33,235 bases of DNA from Bacteroidales bacterium (lineage in GTDB: Bacteria; Bacteroidota; Bacteroidia; Bacteroidales; F082), in the NCBI GenBank assembly GCA_017460915.1, contig JAFUAA010000026.1, positions 1 to 33,235 of the forward strand. The letters are read 5' to 3'. This document shows, one piece after another, positions 16,429 to 28,911 of the stretch; position 1 is the first letter of the stretch, and each line of letters begins with the position of its first letter. The position numbers and the translations under genes are program-made. The notes under the pieces were generated by a model that saw nothing but the letters and a program-made list of their open reading frames with translations, was not told the DNA's origin and searched no databases.

Positions 16429-16822
16429 ATGATGAAACAAGGATATGTGTATATATTATGGCCAATAAACACAACACTACCCTTTACACGGGAGTAACGA
16501 ATGACTTAAAAAGAAGAACTACCGAGCATAAACTACACATCAACAAGAGTTTTACTGATAGATATAATATCGAGAAATTCGTTTGTTTTGAAACGTGCGA
16601 AGACATGACAACAGCCATTCATCGAGAGAAACAACTGAAGAAATGGAAAGGGAATGGAAAGAGACTTTGGTAAATGGCATGAATCCTGAATGGAAAGACT
16701 TGGCAATAGAAATAGGAGTGGACGAGGAGTATATGAGATCGGTAAAAGAGTTTTATGATGTAATGGTTCCCGAGGAAGTATCGTCAAAAAGCGTAGGAGA
16801 TTGCGGGTCAAGCCCGCAATGA
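16429..16822 (+). pseudogene. GIY-YIG nuclease family gene with two frameshifts
   Basis: Small single-domain GIY-YIG (URI-type) proteins are common in Bacteroidetes. Translation pieces appear in three successive frames: MMKQGYVYIL from 16429, then NKHNTTLYTGVTNDLKRR...IHREKQLKKWK from about 16461, then EWKETLVNGMNPEWKDLAIE from about 16656. Together they make a typical ~95-residue family member, with the GIY-YIG motif represented by GYVYIL and LYTGVT. Each junction is explained by loss of one A, near 16457 and in the AAAGGG near 16650. The third frame runs on into the right-flank repeat and stops at 16822. The gene sits between galE and rfbA, bracketed by inverted copies of one hairpin repeat. 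If the indels are sequencing errors the gene is intact. Confidence 0.75.
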
Positions 16823-16826
16823 CGAC
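16795..16826. repeat. Hairpin repeat (TCATTGC family), right flank of the GIY-YIG gene
   Basis: ATTGCGGG (16800-16807) pairs perfectly with CCCGCAAT (16813-16820) around TCAAG, flanked by AGGAG and GACGAC. It is the inverted counterpart of the 16376-16407 copy and supplies the last codons of the GIY-YIG frame. Confidence 0.85.
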
Positions 16827-16865: not shown

Positions 16866-17789
16866 ATGAAAGGCATAGTATTAGCCGGAGGATCCGGCAC
16901 GAGATTGTACCCCATCACGAAGGGCGTGAGCAAGCAGCTCCTCCCCATCTACGACAAGCCGATGGTGTACTATCCCATCTCGGCCTTGATGTTGGCGGGC
17001 ATCCGCGACATCCTCATCATCTCGACACCCTACGACCTGCCCAGCTTCAAGCGCTTGCTGGGCGACGGCTCCGACTACGGCATCTGCTTTGAATATGCCG
17101 AACAGCCCTCTCCCGACGGCCTGGCCCAAGCTTTCATCATTGGAGAGAAGTTCATCGGCGACGACTGCGCCTGCCTCGTCTTGGGCGACAACATCTTCCA
17201 CGGCAACGGCTTCACCAAACTGTTGGAAGAAGCCGTGCGTACTGCCGAGGAGGACAAGAAAGCCACCGTCTTCGGCTATTGGGTGGCCGACCCCGAGCGC
17301 TATGGCGTGGCCGAGTTCGACAAACAGGGCAACTGCATCAGCATTGAGGAGAAGCCCAAGAATCCCAAGAGCAACTACGCCGTGGTGGGCCTCTATTTCT
17401 ATCCCAACAAGGTGGTCGATGTGGCCAAGACCATCAAGCCTTCTGCACGCGGCGAGCTGGAAATCACCACGGTGAACCAGCATTTCCTTGAGGCCGGCGA
17501 GCTGAAGGTGCAGACTCTCGGTCGCGGCTTCGCTTGGCTGGACACGGGTACGCACGACAGTCTGGCCGAAGCCTCCACTTTCGTGGAAGTCATTGAGAAA
17601 CGCCAAGGCTTGAAGATCGCCTGCCTCGAAGGCATCGCCTTCCGTAAAGGCTGGATTACCGAGGAGAGGATGCGTGAACTGGCCAAACCTATGCTGAAAA
17701 ACCAATATGGCCAATACCTGCTCCACGTCATTGACGAATACAAGTCGGAGATCACCTCGGATACGCTGACACACCTGAATAGGAATTAG
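16866..17789 (+). CDS. rfbA: Glucose-1-phosphate thymidylyltransferase
   Basis: RfbA/RmlA makes dTDP-glucose from dTTP and glucose-1-phosphate, the first step towards dTDP-deoxysugars. The 307-residue protein starts [18 protein letters not shown], has [45 protein letters not shown] and [11 protein letters not shown], all matching the family end to end. No rfbC (3,5-epimerase) or rfbD (reductase) lies in the window, so the pathway as seen stops at the RfbB product. Confidence 0.96.
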
Positions 17790-17800
17790 TACCAATGCGC

Positions 17801-17893
17801 AGGAAATCGCGGATCAAGTCCGCGATGACGACACAATGGGTGGGTTCTCTCCCAGGTCGTCATTGCGGGCACAGACCCGCAATCTCCCTGACC
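17801..17893. repeat. Paired hairpin repeats between rfbA and rfbB
   Basis: Two TCATTGC-family hairpins face each other. One is ATCGCGGA/TCCGCGAT (17806-17813, 17819-17826; loop TCAAG). The other is ATTGCGGG/CCCGCAAT (17862-17869, 17876-17883). Both keep the same outer GACGAC / GTCGTC boundary, so the whole 93-bp block is itself an imperfect palindrome, like BIMEs built from REP units. It fills most of the 125-bp gap between rfbA and rfbB. Confidence 0.85.
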
Positions 17894-17914: not shown

Positions 17915-19072
17915 ATGACATACAATAGATCAGTCATCATCACGGGCGGCGCAGGCTTCATCGGGAGCCACGTCGTGCGCCTGTTCGTCAACAAATATCC
18001 TGACTACAAGATCATCAACCTCGACAAGCTGACCTACGCCGGCAATCTCGCCAACCTGAAAGACATCGAGGACAAGCCCAACTACCGTTTCGTCAAGATG
18101 GACATCTGCGACTTCGAAGGCGTGCTGAAGCTGATGCAGGACGAACACGTGGACGGAATCATCCACCTGGCCGCCGAGAGCCATGTGGATCGCAGCATCA
18201 AGGACCCGTTCACCTTTGCGCAAACCAACGTGATGGGTACGCTGAGCCTGCTGCAAGCCGCGAAATTGTATTGGGAACAAAACCCTGTAGAGACGCAAAA
18301 TCTTGCGTCTCCACAACGCAGATTCTATCATATCTCGACCGACGAGGTCTATGGCGCCCTCGAACTGACGCACCCCGATGGCATCGAGCCGCCGTTCACC
18401 ACCAAGGCTAGCAGCGGCAAGCACCATTTGGCTTACGGCGACAAGTTCTTCACCGAGGAGCTGAAATACCAGCCGCACAGCCCCTACAGCGCCGCCAAGG
18501 CCAGCAGCGACCACTTCGTGCGTGCCTTCCACGACACCTACGGCCTGCCCACCATTGTGACCAACTGCTCGAACAATTATGGCCCTTACCAGTTCCCCGA
18601 GAAGCTGATACCTTTATTTATTAATAACATCCGCCACCGCAAGCCGTTGCCCGTCTATGGCAAGGGCGAGAATGTGCGCGACTGGCTCTATGTGGAAGAC
18701 CACGCAAGGGCAATTGACTTGATTTTCCACGAAGGGAAGATTGCCGAGACCTACAACATCGGCGGCTTCAACGAGTGGAAGAACATCGACATCGTGAAGG
18801 AGCTCATCAACACGACCGACCGACTGTTGGGAAGGAAGGAAGGCGAGGACATGGACCTGATCACCTACGTCACCGACCGCGCCGGCCACGATTTGAGGTA
18901 TGCCATCGATTCCAGCAAACTCCAAAAGGAATTGGGTTGGGAGCCAAGCCTGCAGTTTGAGGAGGGCATCGAGAAGACCGTCCGCTGGTACTTGGACAAC
19001 CAGGAATGGATGGACAATGTGACTTCTGGCGACTACCAGAAATATTACGACGACATGTACAAAGGAAGATAA
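17915..19072 (+). CDS. rfbB: dTDP-glucose 4,6-dehydratase (with in-frame repeat insertion)
   Basis: RfbB/RmlB converts dTDP-glucose to dTDP-4-keto-6-deoxyglucose. The ATG at 17915 gives 385 residues: [14 protein letters not shown] motif, STDEVYG with the catalytic Asp-Glu, YSAAKASSDHFVRAF with the Tyr-Lys pair, and NCSNNYGPYQFPEKLIPL. An upstream extension exists but would read through the hairpin repeats. Residues about 124-134, just before the RFYHISTDEVYG active-site strand, are encoded by a copy of the 30-bp palindrome (18286-18315) that also occurs between genes. The insertion keeps the frame and lies in a loop position, so activity is plausible. The next gene starts 11 bp downstream. 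Confidence 0.95.
   Translation: MTYNRSVIITGGAGFIGSHVVRLFVNKYPDYKIINLDKLTYAGNLANLKDIEDKPNYRFVKMDICDFEGVLKLMQDEHVDGIIHLAAESHVDRSIKDPFTFAQTNVMGTLSLLQAAKLYWEQNPVETQNLASPQRRFYHISTDEVYGALELTHPDGIEPPFTTKASSGKHHLAYGDKFFTEELKYQPHSPYSAAKASSDHFVRAFHDTYGLPTIVTNCSNNYGPYQFPEKLIPLFINNIRHRKPLPVYGKGENVRDWLYVEDHARAIDLIFHEGKIAETYNIGGFNEWKNIDIVKELINTTDRLLGRKEGEDMDLITYVTDRAGHDLRYAIDSSKLQKELGWEPSLQFEEGIEKTVRWYLDNQEWMDNVTSGDYQKYYDDMYKGR
18286..18315. repeat. 30-bp palindrome copy inside rfbB
   Basis: Starts TGTAGAGACGCAAAATC and ends GCGTCTCCACA. It differs from the intergenic copy at 21304-21333 by two bases. It is read in frame as about ten residues (VETQNLASPQ). Confidence 0.92.
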
Positions 19073-21303: not shown

Positions 21304-21333
21304 TGTAGAGACGCAAAATTTTGCGTCTCTACA
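21304..21333. repeat. Perfect 30-bp palindrome after the DUF4954 gene
   Basis: Core GACGCAAAATTTTGCGTC, extended to TGTAGA...TCTACA; all 30 bases are self-complementary. It begins 9 bp after the stop codon and could also act as a transcript-end hairpin, though no T-run follows. Confidence 0.95.
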
Positions 21334-23663: not shown

Positions 23664-23693
23664 TGTAGAGACGCAAAATTTTGCGTCTCTACC
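23664..23693. repeat. 30-bp palindrome after the WlbA-like gene
   Basis: Same family as 21304-21333, differing only at the last base. It starts 3 bp after the stop codon. Confidence 0.95.
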
Positions 23694-25216: not shown

Positions 25217-26647
25217 ATGTTTAACAAAACCGCTCCCGATTACTTTAACAAGGGTCCGTGGACCTTCGAGAAGACCGAACACGCCGTCCTCGGACTCTGC
25301 AAGATTCTCGACCGTTATGCCCACAAGCTGACCTTGGAGGACTTGCAAAACGACTCGCGTTGTTCTAAAATCCCCAACCTGAGTTTGGACACGGTGCAAA
25401 AGGTCATCCACGATGTGGAAACCAAACTTTGGCGTGGCGTGAAACCGTTGGAGAACGAGGTCATCTATCACACAGGTCCGCACCACGACGACATCATGCT
25501 GGGTCTCATGCCTTTCATCAACAGGCAGCTGCGCTCGCCTCGCAACGAGGTGCACTTCGCCATCATGACCTCGGGCTACCACTCCGTCACCGACGCGTTT
25601 TTGTTGGATGCCTTGGCCGACACCCTCGACCTCCTGCGGCGCGGCCTCATCCAAATGGTTAACTATCCCGATTTCTTCGAGAAAGGCTATCGTTTCAAGC
25701 AGGAAAAAGACATCCATCATTACCTCGACAACGAGGCTCGCAAGAACCCCGATGAAAAGCGTAGAGGCTTCTGTCACCGTATTCTGCGCGATGCCGTGGG
25801 ATTGTGGCAACTGAAGAGCGTCAGGGAAGTGGAGGAACGGTTCGCAGCAGAGATTGAAAACCTGAGAGAAGGCAAACCCAATAGTCAAGATCTCCAGAAA
25901 CTCAAAGGCGAGATTCGCGAGTTCGAGGAAGAACTGGTTTGGGCTTACGCCGGCACGGCATTGGACCATATCCATCATTTGCGGCTGGGGCTTTACGAGG
26001 ATAATGGGGTTAAGGCTCCTGAGCCTGTCGAAGGACCGACTCCAACAAAATCTACTTTAATTGAACCGGCCCTTCGACGAGCTCAGGAACCTTGGTCGCC
26101 TAACTATGAGCGCGACGTCGCTCCCATCCTCAACCAGCTGCGAGCCCTGAAGCCTACCGTCATCACTGTGGCCATCGACTATGAGGGTCTCGGTCCCAAC
26201 ACCCACTACAAAGTCATGCAAAGTATTGCCGAAGCAGTCCACCTTTGGAGCGAGGAGGCTGACCTCAGGGACTTGAAGATTTTCGGCTACCGCAACGTGT
26301 GGTCGACTTTCCATCCGGCCGAAGCCAACGTGTATGTGCCCGTGTCGCTCAACGCCATGTCAGTCTTCGAGAAGGCTTTCAGGGACAGCTACTTGACGCA
26401 AGTCAAGGCAGAGTTCCCTAATCCCGACTTCGACGGGCCTTTCAGCGATCTGGCCGAGCAGATTTGGGTGAAGCAGTTGAAAGACATACAGTTGGTGCTC
26501 GGCAAGAACTATTTCTACGAGAACCGGCATCCGCTCATTCGCGCCACGCATGGGTTGCTGTTCCTCAAAGAGATGAATGCCAATGAGTTTGTGGCTTTGG
26601 CGGAGGAAATGGCTAGGAGAATTGAGAATAATAGAATTGATAATTGA
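25217..26647 (+). CDS. PIG-L/LmbE-like deacetylase family protein (with in-frame repeat insertion)
   Basis: The 476-residue protein resembles the LmbE-like part seen with glucosamine-6-phosphate deaminases in Bacteroidetes. The metal-binding motif appears as HTGPHHDDIMLGL (H89, H90, D91, D92) followed by VHFAIMTSGYHSV. It may deacetylate an N-acetylated sugar derivative; this is inferred from the family. Residues about 267-291 are encoded by a 72-bp palindromic element (26017-26088) lying between LYEDNGV and WSPNYERDV, presumably in a surface loop. The C-terminal RRIENNRIDN and the stop codon derive from a GAATTGAGAAT repeat shared with the flanks of the next gene, so the original C-terminus was probably replaced. 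The ATG at 25217 is chosen; a TTG lies ten codons earlier. Confidence 0.72.
   Translation: MFNKTAPDYFNKGPWTFEKTEHAVLGLCKILDRYAHKLTLEDLQNDSRCSKIPNLSLDTVQKVIHDVETKLWRGVKPLENEVIYHTGPHHDDIMLGLMPFINRQLRSPRNEVHFAIMTSGYHSVTDAFLLDALADTLDLLRRGLIQMVNYPDFFEKGYRFKQEKDIHHYLDNEARKNPDEKRRGFCHRILRDAVGLWQLKSVREVEERFAAEIENLREGKPNSQDLQKLKGEIREFEEELVWAYAGTALDHIHHLRLGLYEDNGVKAPEPVEGPTPTKSTLIEPALRRAQEPWSPNYERDVAPILNQLRALKPTVITVAIDYEGLGPNTHYKVMQSIAEAVHLWSEEADLRDLKIFGYRNVWSTFHPAEANVYVPVSLNAMSVFEKAFRDSYLTQVKAEFPNPDFDGPFSDLAEQIWVKQLKDIQLVLGKNYFYENRHPLIRATHGLLFLKEMNANEFVALAEEMARRIENNRIDN
26017..26088. repeat. 72-bp palindromic element inside the PIG-L-like gene
   Basis: Arms TCCTGAGCCTGTCGAAGGAC (from 26017) and CCCTTCGACGAGCTCAGGA (to 26088) match at about 19 of 21 positions. 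The length, 72, is a multiple of three. It encodes a peptide with PVEGPT in the left arm and LRRAQ in the right arm. Confidence 0.92.
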
Positions 26648-26667
26648 GAATTAAAGAATTGAGAATT
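26618..26667. repeat. GAATTGAGAAT repeats, left of the second four-helix-bundle gene
   Basis: Several GAATTGA(G/T)AAT units in a row, forming the last codons of the PIG-L-like gene and the leader of the next. The inverted counterpart is 27016-27050. Confidence 0.8.
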
Positions 26668-27015
26668 ATGGCTAATGTGATACAGGATAAAAGCAGGGAT
26701 TTTGCAATAAAGATAATCAATTGTTATAAGTATTTGATTGAAGAGCAACACGAATACATCCTATCGAAACAGTTGGTTCGCAGTGGAACAAGCATAGGGG
26801 CAAACACACGTGAAAGCAAAAACGCTCAATTTCGAAACGACTTTATCAGCAAGTTGAGCATAGCCATAAAAGAAGCTGATGAAACCGGTTATTGGCTTGA
26901 CCTTCTCCATGCCACAGATTATTTGGACAATCAAATGTATGACTCTCTCGCAAAGGATTGCAATGAAATAATAAGAATTCTTACTTCAATCATCAAATCC
27001 CTAAAAGACAAATAA
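26668..27015 (+). CDS. Four-helix-bundle (S23/IVP-like) protein
   Basis: An intact 115-residue member of the four-helix-bundle family, with a characteristic core QLVRSGTSIGANTRESKNAQFRNDF and a helical C-terminus ending SIIKSLKDK. It belongs to a different subgroup from the frameshifted gene at 22282. Family members have no firmly known function; related folds bind nucleic acid and, in Avd, partner a reverse transcriptase. It lies between the PIG-L-like gene and pnuC, with GAATTGAGAAT repeats on the left and their inverted complement on the right. It therefore looks like an insertion rather than an original operon member. The ATG is at the edge of the left repeat. Confidence 0.88.
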   Translation: MANVIQDKSRDFAIKIINCYKYLIEEQHEYILSKQLVRSGTSIGANTRESKNAQFRNDFISKLSIAIKEADETGYWLDLLHATDYLDNQMYDSLAKDCNEIIRILTSIIKSLKDK

Positions 27016-27050
27016 TTGTCAATTGAAAAATTCTCAATTCTCAATTAACA
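27016..27050. repeat. Inverted GAATTGAGAAT repeats, right of the second four-helix-bundle gene
   Basis: Reads ATTCTCAATTCTCAATTAAC on the plus strand, the reverse complement of the left-flank motif. It ends 5 bp before the pnuC ATG. Confidence 0.8.
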
Positions 27051-27055
27051 TTAAT

Positions 27056-27640
27056 ATGGAATTCCTCTCCGCTCATTGGCTCGACATCACCACCACCGCC
27101 CTCGGGCTGGCTTACATCCTTTTGGAGTACAAAGCCAGCGTGTGGATGTGGGTCGTCGGCTTCGTGATGCAAAGCCTGGGCATCGTATTATACTATCAGA
27201 AAGGACTTTACGCCGACTGCGGCATGGAGTTCTACTACTTGGCCATGACGGTCTACGGCTTCGTCGCATGGATGCGCCACAAGCAGAAGGCCACCGACCT
27301 GTCCATCCGTCACATGCCCAAGAAACAAGCCGCCATCTGGCTCGGTCTCGCTGCCTTGGTTTGGGCAGCCCTCTATTTCTTGCTGTCACGTTTCACCAAC
27401 AGCAACGTCCCCGTTCTCGATGCCTTCACCACCTCCTTGAGCATCGTCGGCATCTGGGCCTTGGCACGCAAGTATCTGGAACAGTGGTTCGTATGGATTG
27501 TTGTCGACGTGGTCACATGCGGGTTGTATTTCTACAAGGACATCCCTTTCAAGGCCAGCCTTTATGCCGTTTATGTCGTCATTGCCGTGTTGGGTTACTT
27601 CAAGTGGAAGCGACTGATGGCAGAGCAGGTGAGAAAATAA
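27056..27640 (+). CDS. pnuC: PnuC-type nicotinamide riboside transporter
   Basis: PnuC proteins carry nicotinamide riboside (or, in some lineages, thiamine) through the inner membrane by facilitated diffusion. The 194-residue protein has about seven hydrophobic segments and the typical ILLEYKASVWMWVVGFV early helix, FYYLAMTVYGFVAW, and late VDVVTCGLYFYKDIPFKASLYAVY. Length is normal. There is no TPP riboswitch or thiamine gene beside it, so nicotinamide riboside is the more likely substrate. The sugar-cluster neighbours give no functional link. An upstream extension would be repeat-encoded. Confidence 0.92.
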   Translation: MEFLSAHWLDITTTALGLAYILLEYKASVWMWVVGFVMQSLGIVLYYQKGLYADCGMEFYYLAMTVYGFVAWMRHKQKATDLSIRHMPKKQAAIWLGLAALVWAALYFLLSRFTNSNVPVLDAFTTSLSIVGIWALARKYLEQWFVWIVVDVVTCGLYFYKDIPFKASLYAVYVVIAVLGYFKWKRLMAEQVRK

Positions 27641-27648
27641 AAAAAACA

Positions 27649-27681
27649 TTTGTTTTTTTAGAGGGTATTTCCATATCTTTG
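27649..27681 (+). promoter_or_regulatory. Promoter of the UDP-glucuronate 4-epimerase
   Basis: TTTG at 27649-27652 and TATCTTTG at 27674-27681 are 21 bp apart, an excellent Bacteroidetes match. A leader of about 138 nt follows; a 29-codon frame from 27689 within it has no other support. Confidence 0.65.
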
Positions 27682-27825
27682 CAACGCAATGAAAGATGGA
27701 AAGGAAACGACAAGACTTAGTTTTGTTGATTTTGTTTTATCTTGTTATGGGACAAAGAGTTGTCAACACGAAATGTGACTGACGTAGCGAAGCTATGAAA
27801 AGCTATAAACTCCAAAAAGCAAAGT

Positions 27826-28911
27826 ATGAAAAATATACTTCTTACCGGTGCCGCTGGTTTCATCGGCGCCAATCTGGCACTTTGATTGTTGAAGACCGAA
27901 AATGACATTCATATTGTTGGTCTTGATAGCATCAACGACTATTATGATGTTCGACTGAAAGAATATAGGCTTTCACAAATAGAAGAAACAGTGAAGGCCA
28001 CTAAGCCCGTTGAAGGGCCGACCATGAATGAATCGGCGTTTCGACAAGCTCAACATCCTAACAATCATTGGACTTTCGTCAAAGGCAACCTTGCTGACAA
28101 AGCCCTTATCGATAGCCACTTCGACATCGTGGTGAACCTCGCTGCCCAGGCAGGTGTAAGGTATTCTATTGAGAACCCTGACGCCTACATCGAGAGCAAT
28201 ATTGTGGGTTTTTATAATATCCTCGAAGCCTGCCGTCATCATCCTGTGAATCATTTGGTCTATGCCAGTAGTAGCAGTGTGTATGGTGGCAATAAGAAAG
28301 TGCCTTTCTCGGTTGACGACCGCGTTGACAATCCCGTGAGCCTCTATGCCGCCACCAAGAAGAGCAACGAACTCTTTGCCCACTGTTATAGCAAACTCTA
28401 CGACATTCCCACCACGGGCTTGCGTTTCTTCACGGTCTATGGTCCTGCGGGTCGCCCGGACATGGCCTATTTCGGTTTCACGAACAAGCTGGTGAAAGGT
28501 GAGAAGATACAGATATACAACTACGGCAACTGTCGCCGCGACTTCACCTATGTGGACGACATCGTGGAGGGCATTGTGAGGGTGATGAAGAAGGCACCCG
28601 AACGCAAGACAGGCGACGACGGTCTGCCCTTTCCACCTTATAAAATATATAATATCGGCGGCGGACAGCCCGAGAACCTGTTGGACTTTGTGACCATTCT
28701 CCAAGAGGAATTGGTTCGTGCGGGCGTATTACCGCAAGACTACGACTTCGAGGCGCACAAGGAACTTGTCCCGATGCAGCTTGGCGACGTGCCTACCACA
28801 TACGCCGATGCCACGGCACTGGAACGGGATTTTGGATTTACGCCAAAGATTACGTTGAGAGAGGGCTTGCGGAAGTTTGCGGAGTGGTATAAGGAGTTTT
28901 ATTTGGCCTAA
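27826..28911 (+). pseudogene. UDP-glucuronate 4-epimerase interrupted by an in-frame TGA
   Basis: Translation from 27826 gives MKNILLTGAAGFIGANLAL, then TGA (27883-27885), then LLKTENDIHIVGLDSINDYYDVRLKEYRL in the same frame. This is exactly a UDP-GlcA 4-epimerase (LpsL/CapI type, making UDP-GalA) with Arg CGA changed to TGA at codon 20. The rest is complete: YASSSSVYGG, YAATKKSNEL with Tyr/Lys, RFFTVYGPAGRPDMA, GNCRRDFTYVDDIVEG. Residues 59-78 are a degenerate copy of the palindromic element seen in the PIG-L-like gene. A restart after the stop would lack the NAD motif, so the gene is inactive unless the TGA is a sequencing error or suppressed. Confidence 0.88.
28002..28058. repeat. Palindromic element inside the epimerase gene
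   Basis: Degenerate left arm (CCCGTTGAAGGGCCGACC) and well-kept right arm (TTTCGACAAGCTCAACATCC) of the 26017-26088 family. It is read in the same frame, giving PVEGPT and FRQAQ. Confidence 0.85.

Follow-up and report, generated by a model that had tools for sequence, protein, structure and literature searches.

In the 33,235-nt contig JAFUAA010000026.1 of a Bacteroidales bacterium (GTDB lineage F082; assembly GCA_017460915.1), the whole stretch of DNA analysed here and called the window below, we found evidence of a short dispersed repeat, R1, that lies in frame inside protein-coding genes. The reading that we favour, with a probability of about 0.83, is that R1 is a non-autonomous repeat resembling repetitive extragenic palindromes (REPs) and miniature inverted-repeat transposable elements (MITEs), that it has spread in gut and rumen Bacteroidales, and that its in-frame genic copies survive in flexible loops as tolerated passengers. 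We propose that R1 would insert, presumably by transposition, singly or as inverted pairs, and that a genic copy would persist only if the frame is kept, no stop codon is brought in and the loop is flexible, so that flexible loops would act as traps. Depending on the species, one and the same loop of a protein holds R1 in one or the other orientation, a nested R1, or repeats unrelated to it.

The R1 pair of the window lies in a gene of the PIG-L-like deacetylase family (25217..26647, + strand, ATG at 25217), described here from its open reading frame (ORF), its homologues and an AlphaFold2 model; its match to PF02585 is weak and falls under Pfam's cut-off. The left arm, CCTGAGCCTGTCGAAGG (26018-26034), stands in reverse orientation (- strand) and is read PEPVEG, and the right arm, CCTTCGACGAGCTCAGG (26071-26087, + strand), is read LRRAQ. 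These arms, 17 bp each, form an inverted repeat in frame with the gene, as an earlier note on this DNA had claimed, and the pair folds strongly as single-stranded DNA (z -5.9 against shuffles). At up to three mismatches the window holds two R1 arm matches where 0.06 are expected, and none of 100 shuffles reached two. The pair is held by a length-variable loop segment of 99 nt (25997..26095, + strand), read EDNGVKAPEPVEGPTPTKSTLIEPALRRAQEPW. Between the same flanks, 80 named homologues have loops of 9-120 nt, in all 80 a multiple of three and free of stops, and the 19 loci measured among the 20 of a genus search (a set that overlaps the named homologues) are likewise multiples of three with no stop. 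The loop spans 9-30 nt in homologues with no obvious repeat and seven residues (21 nt in most), often KGDIFTE or TGDIFTE, in distant ones; in near relatives it holds R1, complete, halved or nested, or else a repeat of the CGTC type. Among 49 aligned homologues it is the sole large internal segment that varies in length; the same alignment has a separate 9-column insertion in one sequence. The insert had been put at exactly 72 bp, a figure that holds only against the 27-nt loops of four homologues (L141, L144, L149, L151), other homologue loops giving other differences; what homologues have in its place is a short or different loop, and not a conserved stretch equally long. In the AlphaFold2 model (mean pLDDT 86.6) residues 262-289 score below 50 and the insert is predicted to be disordered; low model confidence is as far as the idea of a surface loop carries, since a solved structure of this protein was sought and none was found. 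The named homologues nearest in sequence come from metagenome-assembled Bacteroidales or Bacteroidia, several of them from rumen or gut samples, which points to a host of that kind.

The same pattern was observed when seven sites in six genes were compared among relatives, namely the PIG-L-like gene, an epimerase gene of the window and, outside the window, four R1-bearing genes followed across the genus, MurB, KdtA (two sites), PyrC and NqrF. Frame disruption was seen at none of them: every measurable loop differs by a multiple of three and brings no stop, in 29/29 cases for MurB, for PyrC and for each of the two KdtA sites, and in all 25 loops measured of 26 for NqrF, where the counts hold one duplicate (L327 and L328 being one gene of genome G012). 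MurB is the cleanest case. A PSTGSGT-type insert is present in the MurB of the window's genome, of G033, of G030 and of others, seven relatives carrying such inserts, and the flanks enclose a single W codon in 21 of the 29 relatives and an L codon in one more; the clean single insert is a difference of 27 nt, or nine codons. The proteins identified as NqrF, MurB and PyrC match solved structures bearing the same names, and when MurB and NqrF are aligned with solved structures from other bacteria, each insert shows as a gap. In PyrC of G033 the 21 extra nucleotides are an R1 core nested in R1, and in NqrF the R1 of the window's genome and that of G033 stand in opposite orientations at 94% identity.

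R1 is abundant in the genome from which the window comes. Its core is GTCGG-CCCTTCGACARGCTCAGG-GACCTT, the unit is about 27 bp long, and its borders are fairly sharp in 79 distinct aligned copies. At up to two mismatches the 2.98-Mb genome holds 82 R1 arms against one for the backward control. At up to one mismatch it holds 76, while 35 genomes of the same genus hold 0-168 each (17 of them at least 15) and 24 other genomes of the order 0-9 each. The distribution is patchy, because the exact arm is present in only 53 of the 395 genomes of a phylum sample, one of which has 203. Clusters with two arms span 53-80 bp and inverted pairs occur; nested R1 was seen in seven places among the loci examined, six of them within an open frame of more than 200 aa. 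Two genomes show an arrangement unlike that of the dispersed copies, with R1 arms in series on contig C10 of G422, at a spacing of about 81 bp, and on contig C7 of G438, at 100-125 bp. Contigs C34 and C48 of G000 carry copies of R1 and of another repeat, R9, at identical spacings, which suggests that a segment was duplicated, either in the genome or in the assembly.

The window's genome has 68 distinct R1 clusters, of which open frames of 200 aa or more hold 38, and 20 have no frame that spans them; since such long frames hold 76% of 2000 places drawn at random from the same loci, R1 is somewhat depleted from genes. The repeats could be thought to act as DNA or RNA inside genes, as mRNA hairpins or as signals for transcription or decay, the peptide being a by-product. 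The strong fold of the PIG-L-like pair is compatible with such a role, and so is the position of the tail-inside (+-) pairs, of which 9 of 12 lie outside open frames of 200 aa; however, 32 of the 38 clusters within long open frames are single units, a single consensus unit has no significant hairpin (z 0.03) and R1 is palindromic only as inverted pairs, and the MurB insert is absent in most relatives, which makes a role of this kind very improbable.

The open frames of 30 of 49 clusters, a chosen set of R1-bearing ORFs, were scanned against Pfam, and families were matched in 26 of the 30. These include MurB, AnmK, Mur ligase, KdtA, gyrase/topoisomerase IV A subunit and NqrF-type domains, as well as ABC, solute-binding and glycosidase families, and in at least 9 of the 26 proteins R1 lies within the matched domain. 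As the longest frame spanning each copy was taken as its ORF, a few R1-bearing ORFs could be wrong, and in a reverse-transcriptase case (L108) the true start may come only after R1. The supported intragenic copies number 28, of which 27 are in the 26 Pfam-matched proteins (KdtA has two) and one is the PIG-L-like gene of the window. They are read as PEPVEG in 15 cases, PSTGSG in 6, LRQAQG in 5, LSLSKG in 2 and FDRLR in none; the sixth frame contains a stop. A single fixed reading phase for the element, as had been proposed, is rejected: four of the five open frames are in use and what is left of the proposal is a bias towards PEPVEG (15/28), equal use of the five open frames being rejected by chi-square (p 9e-5). 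This bias is what one might expect if the inserts were functional linkers under selection, the peptide PEPVEG, rich in proline and glutamate, being useful (as well as PSTGSG), which would account both for the preference for one frame and for the repeated hits on the same loops. MurB and PyrC are expected to be essential enzymes, and inserts in the MurB of seven and the PyrC of many of the relatives examined would suit that explanation. We nevertheless consider it quite improbable, given that four frames and both orientations are used, that unrelated repeats and peptides interchange at NqrF, that close relatives differ or do without the insert, and that in the one model available, that of the PIG-L-like protein, the peptide has very low confidence, as disordered segments have. 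Most likely the insert peptide is a tolerated passenger rather than a functional module, and we infer that such peptides are expressed and neutral.

The same loops are also used by repeats unrelated to R1, most clearly at the NqrF site. Among genomes this site holds R1 in both orientations (the one other than in the window's genome in G033, G021, G018 and G024), the R4 palindrome (G007, G028, G016 and G012) or R5-type repeats (G022, G031, G035 and G012), and in ten relatives the loop is shorter than the flanks used; in G007 a CCCCCTTTGAAAGGGGG hairpin lies inside the R4 palindrome. Four relatives have another repeat, present in other loci too, at the second of the KdtA sites, and the PIG-L-like loop holds R1 or a CGTC-type REP depending on the homologue. 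In the reversed control R5 matched once each at the PIG-L-like site (named homologues), at MurB and at the first KdtA site, and besides R5 and R7 no type matched. Two further types are weak leads on which the main claim does not rely: R6 (the CTAACCGAA type), present in the NqrF of G008, whose core occurs no more often than in shuffled sequence (27 vs 45), and R7 (the AACTCTCAACTCT type), present in relatives of the epimerase, for which the reversed control was equal (2 and 2).

Several unrelated sequence types at one site, together with nested repeats that recur and the lack of a transposase linked to R1 at the loci of REP-associated tyrosine transposases (RAYTs) that were checked, would also be compatible with loops that are simply hypervariable and acquire similar sequences through slippage or through recombination between dispersed repeats, a repeat-templated patching with no transposition. 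The conserved core of the unit, its fairly sharp borders and the single 27-nt insertion in MurB fit an inserting unit better, and we regard patching as unlikely. A further, tentative possibility, to which we give some but not much credence, is that certain loops are persistent landing pads where later, unrelated repeats insert into or replace the resident repeat, in frame and time after time. Candidate examples are R1 in R1, the CCCCCTTTGAAAGGGGG hairpin in the R4 palindrome, and R1 beside an older repeat. If this were true, repeat turnover would be one of the chief ways in which new peptide enters enzymes whose length is otherwise conserved, and repeat-into-repeat targeting, rather than chance and selection alone, would be at work.

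The second gene of the window to which the earlier note had assigned the palindrome encodes a UDP-sugar epimerase (27826..28911, + strand), and here the claim stands only in part. Its insert segment of 60 nt (27997..28056, + strand) is a mixture of two repeats, a degenerate R1-like left arm (28000-28016, with 4/17 mismatches) and an intact right arm, GTTTCGACAAGCTCAAC (28038-28054, + strand), which belongs to a sister repeat, R2, with 12 copies in 283 kb of the genome's own sequence at up to one mismatch and none in shuffled sequence. The idea of a decayed copy thus applies to the left arm; the right arm, being an exact copy of R2, is ruled out as a decayed R1. The palindrome is weak (z -2.1, with 7 of 200 shuffles equally good, and unlisted by the inverted-repeat search). 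The two inserts of the window do share their phase and give related peptides, PVEGPT and [LF]R[RQ]AQ, as had been noted. The epimerase insert is 57 nt longer than the loop of the closest relative, G033 (60 vs 3 nt), and loop lengths are stop-free multiples of three in 18/18 measured. Codon 20 of the gene is an in-frame TGA (27883-27885), after which the open frame resumes at TTG 27886, the protein is without five residues (about 28113-28120) that 17/17 other homologues listed have, and the genome holds a second epimerase-like gene at 52% identity. Judging from the sequence, the gene may be decaying, or the TGA and the deletion may be assembly errors; as it may be decaying, its insert is weak evidence for tolerance. 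The in-frame TGA, and the fact that the near relatives are metagenome-assembled, could prompt the thought that the inserts as a whole are artefacts of assembly or binning, an explanation that is hardly credible when many genomes, each assembled separately, show inserts of the same kinds, in frame wherever measured.

Several observations weigh against R1 as a mobile, tolerated passenger. The single unit, with no significant hairpin, differs from classical REPs; target-site duplication is not demonstrated for R1, the MurB junctions inspected by eye having none; and a link to RAYT transposases is rejected, as their loci were without R1 flanks or enrichment. In the window's genome none of the seven RAYT (Y1_Tnp) genes has R1 within 1.5 kb, and 37 RAYT loci in nine genomes hold five R1 arms in 119 kb, near the genome-wide density. 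A mobilising enzyme was not found, autonomous partners having been sought among RAYTs only. The frame bias (15/6/5/2/0) is unpredicted by insertion plus neutrality, if there is neither site preference nor peptide selection. Furthermore, the comparison sites were picked for the presence of R1 in the window's genome, the PyrC and epimerase inserts are not one clean gap against the solved structures of PyrC and of an epimerase, and many shared inserts are probably inherited, so that the number of species with an insert does not give the number of events. Finally, the evidence consists of sequence comparison and of predicted and solved structures.

R1 can be compared with three known systems. Passages of PMC10969869 describe the Rickettsia palindromic elements (RPEs) of Ogata et al. 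(2000) as dispersed palindromic elements of about 150 bp, several families to a genome, that lie in frame in unrelated metabolic genes and add a peptide. The parallel with RPEs drawn by the earlier note is sound in that R1 too is dispersed, lies in frame in protein genes, where it adds a peptide, and is absent from homologues; it fails in that the single unit is no palindrome. R1 also differs in size (a unit of about 27 bp and two-arm clusters of 53-80 bp), in host phylum (the likeness to RPEs being one of description) and in that in Bacteroidales unrelated families occupy the same site of orthologous loops in many species. For REPs with GTAG or CGTC tags, parts of Di Nocera et al. (2013, PMC3733652) report that many intragenic REPs are dimers, which encode 20-30 residues, that recB of two Xanthomonas species has different REPs at about the same site, that the CGTC REPs of R. 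conorii were equated with RPE-6 and RPE-4, and that Bacteroidetes are among the phyla with CGTC REPs, whose features are the CGTC tag, an 8-9 bp stem starting with AT, a short loop and a CCA-like tail. One insert type found here, GTCATTGCGG...CCGCAATCTCC, which in the window is intergenic at 16796-16826 and 17856-17887, looks by eye to be built alike: it reads CGTC-ATTGCGGG-loop-CCCGCAAT-CTCC, with a tail of CTCC instead of CCA. The R1 consensus, in contrast, has neither the GTAG nor the CGTC tag and no self-folding stem, and in our genomes unrelated repeats share loops at several sites in many species. The enterobacterial RU-1, RU-2 and RU-3, as sections of Delihas (2007, PMC2759123) present them, are MITE-like and intragenic, with the amino acid sequence maintained, and in this they resemble R1, again by description and not by sequence; their units are longer (103-168 bp). 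Since R1 fails on tag, self-folding and RPE size, we file it under neither RPEs nor GTAG/CGTC REPs. R1 behaves as RPEs and intragenic REPs do, which are known already, but the repeat family is a different one, its hosts are Bacteroidales, and orthologous loops are used repeatedly. A search of the open-access literature (subscription papers and supplements were outside its scope) matched neither the R1 arms nor two or more of the five insert peptides together.

Other repeats and genes of the window can be described alongside. A gene for dTDP-glucose 4,6-dehydratase, RmlB (17915..19072, + strand; named from its sequence, with no library search), carries in frame the 30-bp R9 palindrome TGTAGAGACGCAAAATCTTGCGTCTCCACA (18286..18315, + strand), read within PVETQNLASPQ, and in three relatives (L137, L145, L157) the same loop holds R1/R2. 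As a clean insertion this R9 was kept out, the repeat-free loop of L156 being of about the same length. At up to three mismatches the genome matches the R9 pattern 44 times on the forward strand and 44 times on the reverse, against none for the backward control; R9 is near-palindromic, so that most copies match on both strands. Other window copies of R9 (TGTAGAGACGCAAAATYTTGCGTCTCTACA), at 21304-21333 and 23665-23692, lie outside long ORFs, some copies elsewhere in the genome lie in open frames of putative genes, several read VETQNFASL, and the open-access search for R9 gave a single match, a nematode paper. An R4 palindrome, TGTAGGGCTGTC...GACAGCCCTACA, lies at 220-267 of the window, outside the listed ORFs; R4, in frame in the NqrF of relatives, has arms within 1.5 kb of 4 of the 37 RAYT loci. 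CGTC-type REP-like hairpins at 16796-16826, 17802-17832 and 17856-17887 flank a nucleotidyltransferase gene (16866-17789) on both sides, and the PIG-L-like gene is followed by a gene for a 23S rRNA-intervening-sequence protein (26644-27015, PF05635).

In-frame palindromic insertions, best known from the obligate intracellular Rickettsia, are hereby extended to core enzymes of gut Bacteroidales (MurB, PyrC, KdtA, NqrF). Annotators should be warned that where unrelated proteins of this group contain peptides such as PEPVEGPT, PSTGSGT, LRQAQG and VETQNFASL, these are likely to be repeat DNA and not conserved motifs. Loops shared by related genomes, in their dozens, form a record made by nature of the protein positions that accept inserts, and with them one can address whether the repeats target loops or the loops simply tolerate them.

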